From contig OX359189.1 of the NCBI GenBank assembly GCA_947172415.1, forward strand, positions 10,244,501 to 10,308,500: DNA of 64,000 nt. Reading direction: 5' to 3'. The first letter of the stretch is position 1. Each line of letters begins with the position of its first letter. Below are positions 1 to 64,000 of this stretch, one piece after another. Position numbers and translations under genes: made by a program. The notes below the pieces were generated by a model. It did no database searches. It was not told the origin of the DNA and saw only the letters and a list, made by a program, of their open reading frames with translations. Source of the stretch: Chondrosia reniformis. Taxonomy: Eukaryota > Porifera > Demospongiae > Chondrillida > Chondrillidae.

Positions 1-411
1 CTGCAACGGCTTTATTTCGTGTCTCTTAAACAGCTTGCGAGATTTATGAAGATCGACGCATTCCTGGCATATGAAAGCGTCGCAATCCGAACAGAAACTT
101 ACGGCCGATCTCTCTTCTTCGTGTTCCTCCTGACAGATGACGCCTTCCTTCCGGTACTGGTTGCTCAAAGCCTTCCTCAGAGCGAACGGATGGTCAGAAA
201 GATCCTTGAGAGACAAGGAGAACACTTCCTCGCAAATCTTGCAGGAGACGCTGCGATGGAGAATCTTCTCTCGACATTCTACCTTCTCGCACAAAGCTAA
301 CGAGTGGAGACACGGTAGACATTTCAACTCTTTTGCTTTCTCTCCGCAACCGACACAAGAGAGACTAAGCTCGCTGGACTGAAGGGGTGGGACCGCTGGA
401 AGCTCCGCCAT
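1..411 (-). CDS. TRIM-NHL paralogue, N-terminal part (runs off left edge)
   Basis: The reading frame is open from an ATG at 411 to the window edge (137 codons) and is nearly identical to the first 137 codons of the complete TRIM gene at 10266-12446. It covers a RING-type Cys pattern (C19, C22, C31, C34 ... C57, C60) and the first B-box, ending at the motif HEIKPLQ. By family these are E3 ubiquitin ligases with RING, B-boxes, coiled coil, filamin and NHL propeller. Whether the rest of the gene is intact lies outside the window. It is one of at least four TRIM 5' or 3' pieces here, so a tandem array probably extends to the left. Confidence 0.85.
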   Translation of the reverse strand, partial: MAELPAVPPLQSSELSLSCVGCGEKAKELKCLPCLHSLALCEKVECREKILHRSVSCKICEEVFSLSLKDLSDHPFALRKALSNQYRKEGVICQEEHEEERSAVSFCSDCDAFICQECVDLHKSRKLFKRHEIKPLQ

Positions 412-498
412 TTGCAGACCTCGCCTAGTTGCTGTATTTGGTAAATGCTTATTCTTATGCTACTGTTAGTATTTAGTTAATCAGTTCAGTTCGTGTTC

Positions 499-560
499 AC
501 TTAAAGTTCTCTACTACTACTACTCTACTGTTATCACAATTTGCTAGTAAACAACCAACC
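499..560 (-). pseudogene. Remnant of a TRIM-NHL 3' end
   Basis: On the minus strand this short stretch reads CDNSRVVVVENFK and stop, matching the last NHL strand of the complete TRIM protein (SNNSRVVVL, stop). The nucleotides around 500-550 match 10263-10310. It lies about 90 bp upstream (minus direction) of the ATG at 411, as expected if head-to-tail TRIM copies were joined by a deletion. Confidence 0.55.
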
Positions 561-1049
561 ATCATTCAGGACCCTGGCTTGTATGATTCATGTACAGATA
601 ATGCTTCACATGTGTAACATCATGTCTTGTTTCTGTACTTTTTGTAGTATCCACAATTTTTGTAGAATTTTTGTGCTATTTTTAGTTAAGAATGGAGTCT
701 GCATTAGCTATGAATTACTATCTAAACATACATACAATTTTATTCCCCTGCAGCTGGGTATATGAAGTTGCTGATCACGACTCACTGTGTATGACTAAGC
801 ACTTTTATGATGGTATATATGAAGTTGCTGATCACGACTCACTGTGTATGACTAAGCACTTTTATGATGGTATATATGAAGTTGCTGATCACGACTCACT
901 GTGTATGTTAGAGATTTTCGTCTCTTGATCCTTTTTAGCTTATTCTCTCTAAATAGTAAGTTTATTATATAGACCATTAATAAAAATTAAAAAGTCATTC
1001 TTATGTGGATATAATGAATACATTTCTTTCCAATACTGTAGATTTATCA
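561..1049. other. Non-coding interval
   Basis: AT-rich sequence. The only structure seen is the 57-bp tandem repeat at 764-907; no gene was found. Confidence 0.5.
764..907. repeat. 57-bp tandem repeat, about 2.5 copies
   Basis: The string gaagttgctgatcacgact starts at 764, 821 and 878, a period of exactly 57 bp. The unit is a multiple of three and is open in one plus-strand frame, but nothing around it looks like a gene. Confidence 0.9.
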
Positions 1050-2817
1050 ATGGGTATTACCGGGCTAGATGTGTATATGAAAACAGTTAAAGAACTCTGG
1101 AAGCCGTTTAAATTTAACTGTAGTTTGGTTATCGATGGATATGCCTTCCTTTACTACATTTTAGAAACGTACGCGGACAAATTTCCCTGTCAGTACGGAG
1201 GGGAATACAACGATCTTCGCAAAAAGTTTAAATCTTTTTTAGATTGCTTGCAGACTTCCTGTACATTAACATTTGTATTCGATGGCTTCGACTACGATGG
1301 CATTCTTTCTCATTAGCAATTCGGGCTATTTCTCTGTCAGCATCTCCATCTACCACCTGATGTTTGATCTCTCTTTCTCTTAAAACACCGAAAAGTGCAT
1401 CACGCGCTAAAGGTGGCGTAGGGAACCCTTCTTGGTGTTGCTGTGGAGTCTTACCCTTCTTTAGATCGGCTACAATAGAATTGATCCTTTTGGCTTTTTT
1501 TCTTCTTCTACCCTCTTTTTCAATTCGTTTTGAGCCCCTGTACTGTCTAATGATGCAGATTTTTACATCTATGACATCAAATATGGCTATATACCTCTGC
1601 CTACCCTAAAGCTTGAGTCTCATTCCGCAAAACTTTATCTTAGAAAAGATTTTATCGAGAGATGTAAGTTTCCAGACCCAGAACTTATCCTTTGCATACC
1701 ATTCCTACTAGGAAATGACAAATGGAAACCAGAAGGTTTAGAGATTTCAATGGATAAGAAGCTTATAAATAAAATTAATAAATTTAAAACTGTAGATGAC
1801 TTTCTCAAGGATGCCAAAAAGATATCTGATGATCCAGGAACCGTTGTTTCAGGTTTTAAACAGATTAGGGCCATTTACAACACTGGCGGTCATGGCACAG
1901 AGCTGAAAGAAACTGAAATTGATAAATCATTACTCAGCCTTTACAGAGATGGAAAGATTTCACTCAAGCCACTATGCTCTGGAAAAGTCAGTCTACCACA
2001 AGTAATAGAAGATTCAAAGCAGCCATCATGTCATCAAGCTAGCAAAGAGATACGAAAAGTTTCTTATGCTCTACTGCATTTCCATAAGAAAGATGATGTG
2101 AAAATAACGGAGAAGATCTATGGACCTAATCCTGAAAGTGACAGGAGTGAGACAATTACAGTACACCCTGTACAGAAGCTGAAACCACTTCTTCTTCCAT
2201 CTTTGTTATTTCAAAGTACTCAGAAAGAGGCCAAAAGGGATTTAATACTCAAATGTATTGGTTGTACTGATCTTAGTTTTGATGGCATCCGAGAGGATCT
2301 GCACTTGGCTATGCTGGCAACCAGATATTGGTGTACCAAGTGTGAGCCTTCCCAATCTTTTGTAAAAGCTATATTGCTACATTTTCTTAATATTTTTGAT
2401 ATTGAAGAAGATATGGATCCTCAAATCTGTGTAGATACCTTGCGGAAATTTACTCAATGGCAGATTATAATCAAAGATCTTCTAGAGCTAAATGCACTTC
2501 TGTCTGAACCAATTCAAGTACCAACTGATATTTCCCGTATTTATGATGGAAAGAAAATTTTCCGTATCCTGTCTTCAATAAGGGACATTGTTGATAAATT
2601 GACAGTTATAGAAAAGGATTTATACATGACAATGTATCAATTAGTAGATGATAGGCAAGATGAGACCGATAGGCAAGATGAGACCGATAGGCCTAAAGTC
2701 AAAGATAAGAAATCTACATCAAAGAAGAGTTCAAAAGAGGAAGAGAAATCCCAAAAGAAACAGGGAAAAACCCGGTCAGATTTAGGAATTCCATCAAATC
2801 TCTCTCTCTGCAACTGA
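1050..2817 (+). pseudogene. Asteroid (ASTE1)-family gene broken by an internal inversion
   Basis: The frame starts MGITGLDVYMK, the XPG/Asteroid N-terminus, keeps the first acidic motifs (VIDG, FDG) and stops at 1316. About 1301-1534 is inverted: its reverse complement encodes the missing middle of the protein, including GDADREIARIANEKEC, which joins to PVLSNDADFYIYD on the plus strand at 1537. The plus-strand frame then continues without a stop to 2817, covering the C-terminal region shared with the intact paralogue at 5593 (for example the LLELNALL and YDGKKIF segments). One extra base sits at a junction, so the frame does not close exactly even after allowing for the inversion. Catalytic-type acidic residues are present in all blocks. 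As the sequence stands it cannot make the full protein. Confidence 0.85.
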
Positions 2818-2876
2818 CACAAGAGAGACTAACTTAAGCTCGCTGGACTGAAGGGGTGCCATTTGCAGACCTCACC
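2796..2876 (-). pseudogene. Remnant of a TRIM 5' end
   Basis: The sequence ctgcaactgacacaagagag followed by ctcgctggactgaaggggtg and ccatttgcagacctca repeats the start-codon region of the TRIM genes (340-425 and 12375-12460) with small deletions. It overlaps the last codons of the Asteroid copy, which therefore end in antisense TRIM sequence. It marks the left end of the block copied from 12.4-14.6 kb. Confidence 0.75.
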
Positions 2877-3169
2877 ACTATATTTAGTAAATGTTCATTC
2901 TGTCTAGCATCTAATTAATCAGTTCAATTGTTATATATACTATACTTTGATAATTTATGGTTTATGTAGCAATCTATATTTTGTTATAAACCAATACCAA
3001 TCTACATATATGCATGTATCACTTATATTATTGGAAGGAATTATGTTATACAGAACAAATGTACAACCGTACTGATCAAATTGATGTGTATTTTGTAAAT
3101 GAACAAATGTTAAAGGCATAGAGAAGTAGCTATACGTACTTTACAGATATTAAACAGGAAAGCTGAAAG

Positions 3170-4566
3170 TTACACATTGTGAACGAGATGGTCTCTCGAC
3201 CCATCGAGACTGCTCCCCATTGACAAGTCCTCCAGTGTCTCTCTGGAGCCACGTCCTCGCTGGCTCATCTTCTCCTGTCGCTGTCTTGCTTTGCGAGCTC
3301 TGATTGTATTCATCTCCTCATACGTGTTGTCCCCAGGGTCGTACTCCAGTCTAGTTGAGGGGTGTGGCACCGGGGGCGTAGGCTGGGGGCGTGGCTCTGA
3401 AGTCTGAACATCTATTACAACTTCACCTTCTGGATGGGTAACTATGGCAACAGGGAATAGATTAAAAATGGCCGCTATACAACTTACTCCATCTTACCTG
3501 CTGGCTGTACGGTACTGTAAGTTGGGTCATCAAAGATTGGCTCTTCAGTGGTAGCCACTCCGCTCCTTTCCACAAGGGGGCATGTGTCATGGTCAACTAC
3601 AAAGTCGGGATCATTACCTTCATCATAAAAGTACTGACTCGAGTCATCACTGCTGTCCAAGTGATTAAAGTCACCAAAATCTGTTTCATCATTCTCCTGT
3701 TGAGCTACAAACACAAAGTTGTCATCCAGAGCGTCTCTAAACTCAAACCTTCTCGGTTCCACCTCCTCCAGAGGCATCATTGTGGTCTCATGAAGCTCAG
3801 TGACACTGAGAGACAAAGGGAGGACAATTAGGCGTATCCTACATGCACATCTGTGGACGCGTGGATCACTCACTTTGGTTGCAGTCCATGTACTGTAGAC
3901 GTATGCACACATAAGATGAGAGGAAGGAGAAGTGAGACTACATGTTACTCATCTCATTACACACACCAACTCACGTCTGTACTTGAGAGTAGTGTCCTTG
4001 TCCTGATTGCGGTAGCACTTGCGACATATCACAATCAGTACAGAGAGAAACAAGATTGTTACAATGATCGCTATGGCGATTACTGACACCACAGTAATGA
4101 TGAGATTAGAGCCTGCAGCTGAGGTGGGCGTGGTTGGCTCAACTGTGGGCGTGGCCAGGAATGAACTGTTCACTGTCATACCACTTTGAGATGACATTAT
4201 CATAACAGATGATTCTGTGTCAGATATTGAGGAAAACCCTGTCATTAGTATATCTGTGGAAGTTGGCATCACAGATGATGATGTTGCCATGGCAACCAAT
4301 TGTACAGTTACAGCATCTGAGTAGGGTCCAGTATGTTGTTGAGTGCGAGCTCTAACTTCTACAGAATACATTCCTCCTTCTAGCAGATCTGTTATGACTA
4401 TACTCAGACCTGAAGACGCTGACTGAGATACAGTCCGACTGGAACTGGTCAGCAGTGAAGTGTACCTGATGTTGTACCGAGTGATTACTCCATTGGGTGG
4501 GTCAGGTGACTCCCATGTGACCTCCATGGAGGTAGCTGACAGGATGGCCACTCTAACATTGCGAGG
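3170..4566 (-). pseudogene. 3'-terminal duplicate of the large IgSF/FN3 receptor (last FN3, TM, tail)
   Basis: Four exons correspond one-to-one with the last four exons of the gene at 12618-21742: 3975-4566 (FN3, Ser/Thr stalk, transmembrane helix), 3874-3892 (19 nt), 3498-3805 and 3170-3411. Splice sites and phases are kept and the frames are open. The first exon has lost 11 bp at its acceptor, and the exon upstream (equivalent to 14083-14305) is deleted. Homology goes on into intron sequence up to about 4730 and then stops. No signal peptide or Ig exons are present, so this is a truncated copy, although its transmembrane and cytoplasmic part is undamaged. The last exon carries a 12-bp in-frame insertion. 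Confidence 0.85.
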
Positions 4567-4851
4567 CTATGTGCAGTACAGAGAGGATTGTGGATACAAC
4601 ATAAAAGTAATACACACATAAGTCATCGCTTGGTAGATGTCCAAGAGAGATTAGAATATATAACGAATATATAACAAATCAGTTATACTGTACATTTCAT
4701 GTGCAAATGCCATTTTATGTGAATTTACATGTTCCATCACCCCATTCACATTATGTAGGAAATAAGCCCTTTTAAATAGCCTGATTGATGACATCATTCT
4801 CTAGGAGAAACGTTTCCAGCTGGTGGGCTAGAATCTTATGGAATAGCTTAC

Positions 4852-5021
4852 CGACAGTGGCAGTAATATAGAACAATGGGTCTAAAGTTGGGTGGGTTTC
4901 TCGTATCTTCATCTTCAATTCGTTGTCCATTTGTATCCAGTCCAGTATTTCTTTTCTTCTTACTGGCCAATTGGGCCGATCGATCGCGAGTCGCCGCGAA
5001 CTGCACGGGGTTTGACGCCAT
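4852..5021 (-). CDS. Possible first exon of an unrecognised gene
   Basis: An ATG at 5021 opens 56 codons of hydrophilic, coding-like sequence (MASNPVQFAATRDRSAQLAS, then a Lys/Arg-rich stretch and NPPNFRPIVLYY) ending at a good donor, cg|gtaagc, in phase 2. No exon with a matching phase was found downstream on the minus strand; the next feature is the truncated receptor copy, whose first exon is in the wrong phase. It may be an orphaned 5' exon carried by a duplication. I do not recognise the family. Confidence 0.3.
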
Positions 5022-5592: not shown

Positions 5593-8193
5593 ATGGGAAT
5601 TACTGGATTAGACAAGTACATGATGGATAAGGATTGTAAATACTGGAGGGTGCATAAATTCCATAAACAGAAAGATCCCCGTCATTTGGTTCTCGATGGA
5701 AAGGCCTTAATTTACTACATTTTTGAGAAGATTGAGTCTTCTTGTGGATATCCAATCGGAGGAGGGTACAAGGACTTTAATGAAGAATTGGAATCCTTTT
5801 TAGATTACATGAAGGCTCACAACTGGAGATTAATTGTCATTTTCCACGGCTTTAACTATGATTCAAATCAAATCGAAAGAGCAAAGAAGTTAACAAAGAA
5901 TTCTGACAAATTTGAATCTCCTTTAGCTATTCCAGGAAAGGGTAAGATCTCAACCCTGTCAAAAGGATCTCAAGTGATCCTTCCACCATTAGCATATTAT
6001 ACATTTTTCAATATTTTAAGAGAAAAGGGCGTGGCATTTCTGCGGACTGACGGGCCAGCACACCAAAAAGTAGCTCAAATTGCTAATCATCTAAAATGTC
6101 CCGTCTTAGCCAATGATTCTAATTACTACATCTTTGACATTACACATGGCTACATGCCCATACGTACCATGGAGTGCAACAAGGACACCAAAGAGTTTTC
6201 TGCTAAAGTCTACATTAGAGAAGAGTTTGTGACCCACAGGCGATTTGCTAAACCAACCCTCATCTTTGGCATTCCATTGCTATGTGGGAGCAATCTTTAC
6301 CCGTCACCAGGGCCTGATTTTAGAGTTGCTAATGCTGTAGAATTGCTTGCCAAACGTAAGTCTCTGGAGGAATGTACAGTATTAAAGCCAAGAATTACTA
6401 AAGAGGATTTTGTATTGGTGAGAGCCGCTTATGATGCAACTCCTCGACCTCTTGATCAATTTAGAGATAACACAGACATGAAGGTGCATGATGGCTCTGC
6501 AATTGATAAACGATTACTGAGGCTTTACAGGGAGGGAAGAATTTGGCTTCAGTCACTTTGCACTGGTAGAGTTGATCTGCCACTTCACAAATGTCACCTG
6601 GCTGGCAGGGATATACGGAAGATTTCATATGCTCTACATCACTGCCACACAGAGGGAGCTATAGAGGTGATTGAGAGGACTCGCTCCGACTCTGAAGATT
6701 TTAAGGATGATTCTCTGACAGTATGCCCTAGAAAGGTGTGTACCAGGGATGACTTGTTCAGGTGTTTAGGCTGTAAGAACTTTAGATTTGAAGGTCTTGA
6801 GGAGGAGGAAGAAAAGCATTTGGTCCTGTTGGCCACTAGACACTGGGTTTCCAAGTGTAGTCCAGATCCACTGGTAATAGAGGCACTGTTGCACTACTTT
6901 GTGCTTGGTAAGGAAGATGACAACTATGAGAACCTTAATATAGATGTACTTCCTAAATATACTGAATGGCAGGTCATACTGAAGGATCTCTTAGAGCTAA
7001 ATATCCTCTTGGATGAACCCTTTAAAGCACCAATTGACGTTTCAAAATTTTATGATGGAAAGGCAATCCTTTGTTTATTGAAGCAATTGCAACCTACAAA
7101 GCTTGCATTTGAGAGACCTGAGAATGAAGGGCCTAAATTGGGTGCACACGATAAGCAGCTACTGGAGAAAATGTTTCTATTGGTGACTTCGGAAGATTTT
7201 GATAATCCAGCAAAACCAAATAATGGTAAAGTTGGGGATAGAACTAGTAATTTGGGTAGGGCCGGTGATTTGGATAGGGCTGGTCAAGATTGGAATGGGG
7301 CTGGTCAAGATTGGAATGGGGCTGGTCAAGATTGGAATGGGGCTGGTCAAGATTGGAATGGGGCTGGTCAAGATTGGAATGGGGCTGGTCAAGATTGGAA
7401 TGGGGCTGGTCAAGATTGGGATAGTGAATATAGTAGCAATAACCCAACAAGATCCTCATTGAAAACCCGCAGTCGCAAATGGCGTGATGATTATGAGCAA
7501 CCAATAGAATTTAATTCCAAAAGAATTTGTTCTGCTCCTCAAAAAAAAACATTTAATACAGCAAATCCTTATCGCAATCGTGATTGGAATAGATCTCGAG
7601 GTAGTCACAAAGGTACAGATCGTAGTTGGGATAAAGGAGGTCGTAGCTGGGATAGGGGAGGTCGTAGCTGGGATAGGGGAGGTCGTAGCTGGGATAGGGG
7701 AGGTCGTAGCTGGGATAGGGGAGGTCGTAGCTGGGATAGAGGAGGTCGTAGTTGGGATAGAGGAGGTCGTAGTTGGGATAGAGGAGGTTGTAGTTGGGAT
7801 AGGGGAGGTCGTAGTTGGGATAGGGGAGGTCGTAGTTGGGATAGGGGAGGTCGTAGTTGGGATAGGGGAGGTCGTAGTTGGGATAGGGGAGGTCCCAAAG
7901 AGCATTACCATATGGATAGACCAAGAAATTTCAAATTCAAAGGAGGATTTGGTCCTAATTATTATCATGAAGCCTCTGACAGAGCAGCAAAGCTTCATCA
8001 TCCTTCTAAGAGTAGTCACAAATGGATTGGTGAAAATTCAACTGAATCCAAATTCAGAAGAAGGCATGCTCGTGGAGATTTGGATACTGTGGCTAATTAT
8101 GAGCCTCGTCATGATCTTCATCGAGAAAGGAGAAGTCAATATAAATCCATATATGGAGTTAAGCCAAAATTCAGTGGCAAAAGAAGATATTAA
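5593..8193 (+). CDS. Asteroid/ASTE1-like protein with repetitive Gly-Trp-Asp tail
   Basis: Single-exon ORF of 866 aa starting MGITGLDKYM. Residues 1 to about 520 follow the Asteroid family: XPG N-terminal-like block, XPG-I-like block (CPVLANDSNYYIFD) and the C-terminal helical region (DLLELNILLDEP). Human ASTE1 is an XPG-like nuclease linked to DNA-end processing. Here several expected metal-binding acids are replaced: FHG instead of FDG, DGPAHQ where the family has an acid-rich (S)EADRD-type motif, and DSN instead of DSD. Catalysis is therefore doubtful. Residues from about 564 carry seven 7-residue units (GQDWNGA), then thirteen units (RSWDRGG), then a basic tail, resembling RGG-type RNA-binding or condensate-prone regions. 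The family core is normally about 650-700 aa, so the tail is an addition. Confidence 0.8.
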   Translation: MGITGLDKYMMDKDCKYWRVHKFHKQKDPRHLVLDGKALIYYIFEKIESSCGYPIGGGYKDFNEELESFLDYMKAHNWRLIVIFHGFNYDSNQIERAKKLTKNSDKFESPLAIPGKGKISTLSKGSQVILPPLAYYTFFNILREKGVAFLRTDGPAHQKVAQIANHLKCPVLANDSNYYIFDITHGYMPIRTMECNKDTKEFSAKVYIREEFVTHRRFAKPTLIFGIPLLCGSNLYPSPGPDFRVANAVELLAKRKSLEECTVLKPRITKEDFVLVRAAYDATPRPLDQFRDNTDMKVHDGSAIDKRLLRLYREGRIWLQSLCTGRVDLPLHKCHLAGRDIRKISYALHHCHTEGAIEVIERTRSDSEDFKDDSLTVCPRKVCTRDDLFRCLGCKNFRFEGLEEEEEKHLVLLATRHWVSKCSPDPLVIEALLHYFVLGKEDDNYENLNIDVLPKYTEWQVILKDLLELNILLDEPFKAPIDVSKFYDGKAILCLLKQLQPTKLAFERPENEGPKLGAHDKQLLEKMFLLVTSEDFDNPAKPNNGKVGDRTSNLGRAGDLDRAGQDWNGAGQDWNGAGQDWNGAGQDWNGAGQDWNGAGQDWNGAGQDWDSEYSSNNPTRSSLKTRSRKWRDDYEQPIEFNSKRICSAPQKKTFNTANPYRNRDWNRSRGSHKGTDRSWDKGGRSWDRGGRSWDRGGRSWDRGGRSWDRGGRSWDRGGRSWDRGGRSWDRGGCSWDRGGRSWDRGGRSWDRGGRSWDRGGRSWDRGGPKEHYHMDRPRNFKFKGGFGPNYYHEASDRAAKLHHPSKSSHKWIGENSTESKFRRRHARGDLDTVANYEPRHDLHRERRSQYKSIYGVKPKFSGKRRY
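7282..7428 (+). repeat. Coding 21-bp minisatellite, 7 copies
   Basis: Unit ggtcaagattggaatggggct encodes GQDWNGA; the last copy changes N to D. It lies in frame inside the Asteroid-like ORF. Confidence 0.95.
7621..7893 (+). repeat. Coding 21-bp minisatellite, 13 copies
   Basis: Unit cgtagttgggataggggaggt encodes RSWDRGG; one copy has Cys for Arg. It has the same 21-bp period as the array 190 bp upstream and a similar core (ggtc....ttgg.at.gggg), so the two probably share an origin. Confidence 0.95.
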
Positions 8194-51800: not shown

Positions 51801-54800
51801 GAATGGCAAGCTTGTCAAACCCACTAGAGTGTCCTGTTATATGAGAGCAATTGACAGTCAATTAGACAATCTGATTGGACAGTTGGTTGTTGTCATGACA
51901 ACATGATAGAATTATATACAAACTAAATTTAGAACTTATGTATTACTAGTACTTCATATGTTAATACAGTTTAGAAAATTTGCTGCTATATTTTTATATT
52001 TAATACTGTTACTCTATCAAATGGACAGATATGAAGCTGACCCTTTGTGTCAACACTCACACACATCTCTGTTGTAGAGGTGCAATTCTCTCTTCTCTTC
52101 TTCCTTAGGTCCTCCTGATGTCGTAGTAGGACCACCAGTAATGACTGAGGTGGGAGTGGGGCAAGATGTCCAGTTCAGCTGCTCCGTACAGGCCTTTCCT
52201 CTGCTGACAGAAGGTCCTCTTTGGGTGAAGGATGGTCGAGTGCTACAACAAGGCGACAAGTACACTCTGGGTCTGAACAGCCTCACTGTGAAGTCGTTAA
52301 GCAGGGAAGATTCAGGGACTTACTCATGTGTGGCCTCCAACTCTGCTGGCAGTACCAACGACTCTCTCTCTCTCTCAGTTATCGGTGAGCACTTCTGAAG
52401 CAGTCATACGTTGTAACCCAAAGTACCCCACAAACATAATATCTTTTCTCAAAATATATATCATGATAAAATTCCAAAAATGTCAATGTATTGAAAGCAT
52501 ATAATTTTCAATTTTTGGATATACTGTACGTATGTGCATATAAATATGTAAATGGCAGCTAGTGATGTATTGTATAAAGAACAATATGTTTTATGGCCAT
52601 TTTGTGATAAAGTCCTCTCACTTATCATATACTTGAGTAATTTACTAGAGATGATTAGATTGAGTAAATTGAAGTAGTACCGTAGTCGGAAAACAAATTG
52701 ACAGTACTCACTTGAGACTGACAACTTGTAATGGATTTCTGTCTCTTCAAGTGTGTAATTGCATTATCTGTTCAGTTCCTTATTACAATATTGGTGATTA
52801 GTGACAGCAAAAGAGATGTGGTATTACATACAAGTGTTTGACAAACCAAACAGGTCTAGTTCTAATGACCTAATGACTACCCCACCCCCTGGTACACGTG
52901 TCACTGACTCTAGCAAGACTACCCCACCCCCTGGTACACGTGTCACTGACTCTAGCAAGGCTACCCCACCCCCTGGTACACGTGTCACTGACTCTAGCAA
53001 GGCTACCTCACCCCCTGGTACACATGTCACTGACTCTAGCAAGGCTACCCCGCCCCCTGGTACACGTGTCACTGACTCTAGCAAGGCTACCCCACCCCCT
53101 GGTACACCTGTCACTGACTCTAGCAAGGCTACCCCACCCCCTGGTACACGTGTCACTGACTCTAGCAAGGCTACCCCACCCCCTGGTACACCTGTCACTG
53201 ACTCTAGCAAGGCTACCCCACCCCCTGGTACACGTGTCACTGACTCTAGCAAGGCTACCCAACCCCTGGTACACGTGTCACTGACTCTAGCAAGGCTACC
53301 TCACCCCCTGGTACACGTGTCACTGACTCTAGCAAGGCTACCCCACCCCCTGGTACACATGTCACTGACTCTAGCAAGGCTACCCCACCCCCTGGTACAC
53401 ATGTCACTGACTCTAGCAAGGCTACCCCACCCCCTGGTACACGTGTCACTGACTCTAGCAAGGCTACCCCACCCCCTGGTACACGTGTCACTGACTCTAG
53501 CAAGGCTACCCCACCCCTTGGTACACGTGTCACTGACTCTAGCAAGGCTACCCCGCCCCCTGGTACACGTGTCACTGACTCTAGCAAGGCTACCCCGCCC
53601 CCTGGTACACGTGTCACTGACTCTAGCAAGGCTACCCCACCCCCTGGTACACGTGTCACTGACTCTAGCAAGGCTACCCCACCCCCTGGTACACGTGTCA
53701 CTGACTCTAGCAAGGCTACCCCGTCCCCTGGTACACCTGTCACTGACTCTAGCAAGGCTACCCCACCCCCTGGTACACGTGTCACTGACTCTAGCAAGGC
53801 TACCCCACCCCCTGGTACACGTGTCACTGACTCTAGCAAGGCTACCCCACCCCCTGGTACACGTGTCACTGACTCTAGCAAGGCTACCCCACCCCCTGGT
53901 ACACGTGTCACTGACTCTAGCAAGGCTACCCCACCCCCTGGTACACGTGTCACTGACTCTAGCAAGGCTACCCCACCCCCTGGTACACGTGTCACTGACT
54001 CTAGCAAGGCTACCCCGCCCCCTGGTACACCTGTCACTGACTCTAGCAAGGCTACCCCGCCCCCTGGTACACGTGTCACTGACTCTAGCAAGGCTACCCC
54101 ACCCCCTGGTACACGTGTCACTGACTCTAGCAAGGCTACCCCACCCCCTGGTACACATGTCACTGACTCTAGCAAGGCTACCCCACCCCCTGGTACACCT
54201 GTCACTGACTCTAGCAAGGCTACCCCACCCCCTGGTACACGTGTCACTGACTCTAGCAAGGCTACCCCACCCCCTGGTACACATGTCACTGACTCTAGCA
54301 AGGCTACCCCACCCCCTGGTACACATGTCACTGACTCTAGCAAGGCTACCCCACCCCCTGGTACACCTGTCACTGACTCTAGCAAGGCTACCTCACCCCC
54401 TGGTACACATGTCACTGACTCTAGCAAGGCTACCCCACCCCCTGGTACACATGTCACTGACTCTAGCAAGGCTACCCCACCCCCTGGTACACATGTCACT
54501 GACTCTAGCAAGGCTACCCCACCCCCTGGTACACCTGTCACTGACTCTAGCAAGGCTACCTCACCCCCTGGTACACGTGTCACTGACTCTAGCAAGGCTA
54601 CCCCGCCCCCTGGTATACCTGTCACTGACTCTAGCAAGGCTACCCCGCCCCCTGGTACATGAGGCAATCCCAGTAGATCACCTGATCAATCACACTTCTC
54701 CACAATCCAATATCTCCAGGTAACAAGATAGCTTAGTTACTATACCAACTTGCAGTGTTACCAATATGTATTTTTATGTATCAGTCAATGGTCAAGTTAT

Positions 54801-63870: not shown

Positions 63871-64000
63871 ACAATACGACCTTTAATGGTGTAGAATTAT
63901 ATCGTGCGATACTATTATGGAAATTATCGGCATACCAAGTTATAATGATTTGACATGAATGGGGCAACTAGAAACACGCAGGGACAGTCCAGAACGCAGC
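63668..64000. repeat. Second copy of the 59395-59727 segment
   Basis: The last 333 bp of the window match 59395-59727 at a constant offset of 4273 bp, including the non-satellite words tcgtgcgatactattatgg and acgcagggacagtccagaac. The window ends inside this copy. Confidence 0.92.

Follow-up and report, generated by a model that had tools for sequence, protein, structure and literature searches.

The locus described here raises the question of why a gene should stand in three pieces on two strands, its middle reading backwards between a beginning and an end that read forwards. The window (the whole stretch of DNA analysed, 64,000 nucleotides) corresponds to C1:10244501–10308500 of Chondrosia reniformis assembly odChoReni1.1, whose 15 contigs total 117,379,552 bases; contig C1 comprises 10,409,357 bases and contig C8, on which related genes are found, 8,125,224 bases. 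We consider it very probable that a recent, balanced microinversion of 232–238 bp knocked out one Asteroid/XPG-type nuclease-like gene. The features on which the argument turns are given below in window coordinates.

1050–1301, plus strand: N-terminal piece of the Asteroid/XPG-type gene, 84 codons (MGITGLD...VFDGFDYDG), with two of the seven putative metal-binding acidic residues
1299–1301, plus strand: left breakpoint GGC, an exact inverted arm (3-nt inverted microhomology)
1302–1533, minus strand: inverted middle piece, 232 nt (238 nt with the GGC/GCC at both breaks), with two of the seven acidic residues (DGDAD)
1495–1534, plus strand: polypyrimidine tract plus AG resembling a 3' splice site, created by the inversion of Lys/Arg-rich codons
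1534–1538, plus strand: right breakpoint GCC, within a C run, 1 nt above the paralogue frame (by frame comparison and paralogue alignment)
1537–2817, plus strand: C-terminal piece to the stop, 426 codons plus stop, with three of the seven acidic residues (SNDAD, GND)
5593–8193, plus strand: open paralogue C1c, 866 codons plus stop, in the uninverted order, with two of the seven acidic residues

Three pieces of one protein

The plus-strand frame that begins with the ATG at 1050 ends after 88 codons at a stop (1314–1316); its first 84 residues read as an XPG-type protein and are followed by four extra residues. The reverse complement of 1302–1533 is open throughout its 77 codons (SKRIEK...IANEKE, zero stops), and the plus strand picks up at 1537 with PVLSNDADFYIYD (PVLSNDADF), remaining open until the stop at 2817. 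No further stop or frameshift occurs across the ~587 codons of the broken gene. From 1050 to 2817 there are 1768 nt, a multiple of three plus one, and one surplus nucleotide at the right junction, in the C run 1535–1538, puts the frame off by one. The exact break positions are ambiguous within the 3-nt GGC/GCC, because an inversion with endpoints 1302–1533, 1301–1534, 1300–1535 or 1299–1536 yields the identical string.

To place the pieces on a common scale, we used a profile of five open paralogues encoded in this genome (two on C1, the window's own C1c among them, and three on C8), with the broken gene left out, and scanned it against all six frames of the whole window. The N-terminal piece matched profile positions 1–86 on the plus strand (E 1.4e-19), the middle piece positions 75–157 on the minus strand (E 2.7e-09) and the C-terminal piece positions 158–556 on the plus strand (E 1.1e-75), so that the three tile one protein in the order plus–minus–plus. 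Only these pieces and C1c itself (E 2.3e-263) fell below E 0.01; two others (E 0.037 and 8.9) can be disregarded. The minus-strand match is not due to chance: the middle piece scores 28.0 bits, whereas among its 500 residue shuffles, 31 of which were reported at all, the highest score was 1.3 bits.

Aligned with the three C8 paralogues, the pieces are gap-free at both junctions, except for the residue touched by the surplus nucleotide; the paralogues C1a and C1c are five residues longer at the left junction than both the pieces and the C8 copies. A reverse-complement segment thus lies between collinear flanks, as in a microinversion, and relative to the C8 paralogues flank sequence is neither duplicated nor missing, apart from the one surplus nucleotide, as in a balanced one. 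The uninverted order is present in the five open paralogues, and is seen in paralogues only.

These results bear out most of the original prediction, which had described a plus-frame stop at 1316, a missing middle in the reverse complement of about 1301–1534, a plus strand resuming after it, a length one over a multiple of three (now confirmed by frame comparison) and pieces without other obvious lesions, and had concluded that a precise small inversion lies inside an Asteroid-family gene (here, one with XPG_N and XPG_I_2 matches and same-genome paralogues in the uninverted order). Its further proposal that one base was gained at a junction stands as far as the surplus nucleotide itself is concerned, but a separate indel is another possible source; the surplus could be either a junction scar or such an indel.

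Identity of the gene and its apparent constraint before the flip

Joined in paralogue order, the pieces pass the Pfam cut-off for XPG_I_2 (E 1.7e-06, 28.2 bits, cut-off 24.2) and come just under that for XPG_N (E 3.4e-04, 21.5 bits, cut-off 22). Taken singly, the N-terminal piece matches XPG_N (E 4.6e-04, 21 bits against the cut-off of 22), the C-terminal piece matches XPG_I_2 (E 0.0079) and the middle piece has zero Pfam matches. Among the paralogues, C8a is above both cut-offs, and C1a passes neither, reaching only XPG_I_2 below its cut-off (E 0.0048). A profile of four family members, the broken gene's pieces included, matches five EXO1 sequences (E 0.0013–0.0063), after which come three presumably chance matches (E 0.4–0.6); searching solved structures with the N-terminal part of C8a as the sole query returned no match.

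Seven acidic columns of the family alignment, which we take to be putative XPG/FEN active-site positions with a role carried over from EXO1 and FEN1, are all kept in the broken gene's pieces (two of them within the inverted segment). All seven are likewise kept in each C8 paralogue, and two of the seven in C1a and in C1c; six of the columns lie inside the EXO1 alignment. The gene resembles the Asteroid and XPG–FEN nuclease superfamily in its MGI.GL N-terminal start, its XPG_N and XPG_I_2 matches and these seven acidic positions, and on that basis is a predicted, nuclease-like member of the Asteroid/XPG-type family. It departs from the superfamily in that the sponge copy is interrupted by the inversion, and the nearby C1a and C1c in the loss of five of these positions.

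The retention of all seven positions suggests that the broken gene was under constraint before the flip and, because C1a and C1c keep only two, the broken copy looked like the one still enzyme-like among the three C1 copies. Over the first 510 codons, dN/dS among the paralogues is 0.54–0.84 overall, indicating weak to moderate constraint, with a dS of 0.025 and a dN of 0.013 between C1a and C1c, and a dS of 0.05–0.09 and a dN/dS of 0.58–0.84 within the C8 trio. As the paralogues are constrained to this degree only, the gene may have mattered little even before the flip. The sequences depict the Asteroid-like family as small and fast-evolving, with gene birth and loss and with predicted coding frames free of introns. 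Both C1c and the copy at C1:10230413–10233385 carry long tandem repeats in their C-terminal halves (e.g. GQDWNGA, GGRSWDR), and the acid-poor C1 paralogues are candidate pseudo-enzymes with a new repeat tail.

Mechanism, age and rival readings

A balanced flip of 232–238 bp inside an intronless coding frame would have broken the gene, leaving as possible products an 88-residue N-terminal fragment or a 355-residue C-terminal piece starting from an internal Met at 1750. Since only such fragments could be made, the allele is probably null as far as any nuclease is concerned. Published options for the origin of microinversions include template switching, microhomology-mediated break-induced replication and end-joining of two breaks (PMC8755829). 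All three are possible over 232 bp, and we lean towards a copying mechanism that uses microhomology over double end-joining. GGC and GCC, originally put forward as candidate inverted microhomology, are indeed exact 3-nt inverted arms, but a match of at least 3 nt is expected at ~5% of random breakpoint pairs at the observed spacing, and they are therefore weak evidence of mechanism.

Six tests for longer inverted repeats were made, each set against 300 shuffles. In the outer flanks of 30, 60 and 120 nt, the best inverted match was reached by 270, 95 and 53 shuffles, respectively; in the three tests straddling the breaks, it was matched by 6, 282 and 37 shuffles, the value of 6, the one among the six tests to stand out, belonging to a 7-nt TCATTAG/CTAATGA plus GGGCT/AGCCC. 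None of the 17 inverted pairs in 1100–1750 has arms at both breaks, and one (1468–1484/1520–1536, 76% identity) ends at the right break. Nor was recurrent inversion found nearby: a blastn scan of 223.5 kb of C1, which sees similar duplicates only and misses very short inversions and divergence at the level of this gene and its paralogues, gave zero minus-between-plus cases among 124 minus and 2239 plus HSPs.

The age of the flip can be bounded from the integrity of the pieces. With indel/substitution ratios of 0.05–0.15, and assuming no selection on the pieces, ~136–254 nonsense or frameshift lesions are expected in ~587 codons per unit of neutral divergence, and zero lesions beyond the inversion place a 95% upper bound of 0.012–0.022 on that divergence (0.019–0.035 if the surplus base is counted as a later lesion). 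This bound is near the dS of the C1a/C1c duplication given above, and the flip is therefore probably about as old as the latest duplications of the array, or younger. The lesion count thus fits the original description of the inversion as young, and the inversion may still be segregating.

Four other readings of the locus were weighed. The evidence presented here is the assembled consensus alone, and a one-base surplus at a junction is error-like, as would be expected if the assembly or library had flipped the segment in the consensus and the animal carried the uninverted order only. The genome paper (PMC12181767) describes 14 chromosomes and the mitochondrion, assembled with hifiasm from PacBio HiFi data (10.31 Gb in 0.80 million reads, ~70x), with a QV of 69.8 for the primary haplotype; division of these totals gives a mean read of ~12.9 kb. 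The HiFi reads are deposited as ERR10224860, and an alternate haplotype (GCA_947172445.1) and RNA-seq data of this specimen (ERR10177766) also exist. Reads of ~13 kb at that depth and quality would cross a segment of 232 bp many times over; the window is free of N; 3 nt of microhomology offers, in our judgement, no evident cause for an assembler to flip a segment; and the terms ‘amplif’, ‘ultra-low’ and ‘low input’ are absent from the main text of the genome paper. Mis-assembly, the main alternative according to the original prediction, is unlikely in the light of a HiFi assembly of this QV and depth, and we keep it as a rival with a small probability. Trans-splicing of a minus-strand exon, which would supply the middle and let the gene work in three pieces, might draw on the 125-codon open stretch in which the minus-strand piece sits; no canonical donor is apparent by eye at the left plus-strand boundary (GATGGC|ATTC), and we find this reading scarcely credible.

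The two remaining rivals would give the flip a function. In one, found post hoc, it made a working intron, such that splicing from a GT at 1189 or 1261 to the AG at 1534 excises the flipped DNA and yields a shortened protein in frame. Among the 4563 AGs on the plus strand of the window, no other follows a 38-nt tract so rich in pyrimidines and free of AG (7 of 4368 minus-strand AGs do), and joining 1188 or 1260 to 1535 keeps the frame, with 473 or 497 stop-free codons. The donors, however, are weak: of the 4028 GTs on the window's plus strand, ranked with a generic donor matrix, 1189 falls within the best 15% and 1261 within the best 38%; the highest-ranking GT of the stretch (1413) lies past the stop at 1316 and is of no help, two others that were tried (1169 and 1193) are out of frame, and either product would be without three of the seven acidic residues. 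We regard a working intron as very unlikely, and extend the same low expectation to what it would imply, namely the birth of an intron in one step from a flipped exon piece, with the shortened protein expressed and the gene not dead. In the other, the segment is a reversible or programmed switch, germline or somatic, that toggles the gene on and off, as the precise and balanced inversion and the otherwise lesion-free gene might suggest. An inverted repeat with arms at both breaks amounts to 3 nt at most, which is not the recombinase-target repeat of a site-specific invertible switch; the blastn scan of similar duplicate pairs in the 223.5 kb around the locus gave no other inversion; and, since re-inversion alone would keep the frame off by one, a reversible switch is disfavoured and its likelihood remote.

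Known microinversions and the setting of the locus

Small inversions are already known as a kind of mutation, and the sponge flip is a further case. Published surveys in birds, in human and chimpanzee, and in Drosophila differ in method and detectable range. The definite human–chimpanzee microinversions described in one such survey (Potapova, Kondrashov and Mirkin 2022, PMC8755829) measure 17–33 nt and are all flanked by inverted repeats, 11% of them with 3-nt arms; the sponge flip resembles them in being small, balanced and an essentially exact copy with short inverted microhomology at its ends, and differs from them in its 232–238 bp, its position in coding sequence, its one surplus junction base and its arms of 3 nt only. 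Between two Drosophila species, 143 microinversions of <5 kb, many of them <1 kb and 142 of them single-copy, were reported, three being confirmed by PCR and resequencing; none of the 143 overlaps an exon of its host gene, and seven overlap an exon of a nested or overlapping gene (PMC1779558). Our case is likewise a small inversion in or near genes but, unlike that set, lies wholly within coding sequence and breaks the gene. Avian microinversions, reported from non-coding loci only and accumulating slowly, span 5–38 bp (PMC3123225); they share with the sponge flip the character of a short local inversion, whereas the latter is longer and coding. A 6-kb inversion in a human gene (PMC4969072) is not close to the sponge case.

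A microinversion in coding sequence from which the whole protein can still be read would usefully illustrate gene loss at an early stage. It may also be a trap for gene finding, as annotation could turn a gene split into three pieces across both strands into two short genes or miss it altogether. Should the flip still be segregating, its frequency and effect could be measured directly from the two alleles.

The broken gene belongs to a tandem array (~C1:10226500–10258500) of TRIM-NHL-like genes (minus strand), a fibronectin-III-like gene (minus strand) and Asteroid-like genes (plus strand), the first two named from a reading of their translations. It was found in a single unit of the array. 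In two other units, ~76 and 150 nt separate the TRIM 5' end from the next shared block, with no such gene between, and in a third unit ~1.9 kb of other sequence occupies its place. The Asteroid gene of this third unit has its first ~ten codons joined to its tail, with ~2.6 kb lost relative to C1c; the deletion junction lies upstream of the window, at C1 ~10240544–10240620, and the loss extends from about codon 11 to near the end. A second genomic copy of the broken gene, whether a retained haplotype or a source copy, was sought by a DNA search of the same genome with window positions 1001–1900, which returned the window itself only.

The upstream flank of the gene has at least 59 matches in the genome, one being itself and 58 falling within one dispersed repeat (the best 40 of 662 candidates were scored); the downstream flank has at least 40, comprising itself, 33 on C2, four more on C1 and two on C5 (40 of 64 candidates scored), and, judging from the local copies, we infer that these are relatives of the TRIM 5' region. 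At 2800–2929, an old copy of that region (68–73% identity) overlaps the 3' end of the broken gene. Just upstream of the gene, at 759–907, a blastn self-comparison revealed ~2.6 copies of a 57-bp repeat, which are 100% alike and therefore mark a very recent expansion. A dispersed repeat of ~120 bp at ~571–690 recurs on many chromosomes, often as nearby plus/minus pairs, and is perhaps a small inverted-repeat transposon. No tRNA was found in window positions 1–5000. Farther along the window, a tandem array with a spacing of ~84 bp occupies 52877–54659 (C1:10297377–10299159), and another with a spacing of ~169 bp, together with longer-range repeats, runs from 58343 through the window's end at 64000 and beyond (C1:10302843 to 10330274), some 79–107 kb from the end of the contig.
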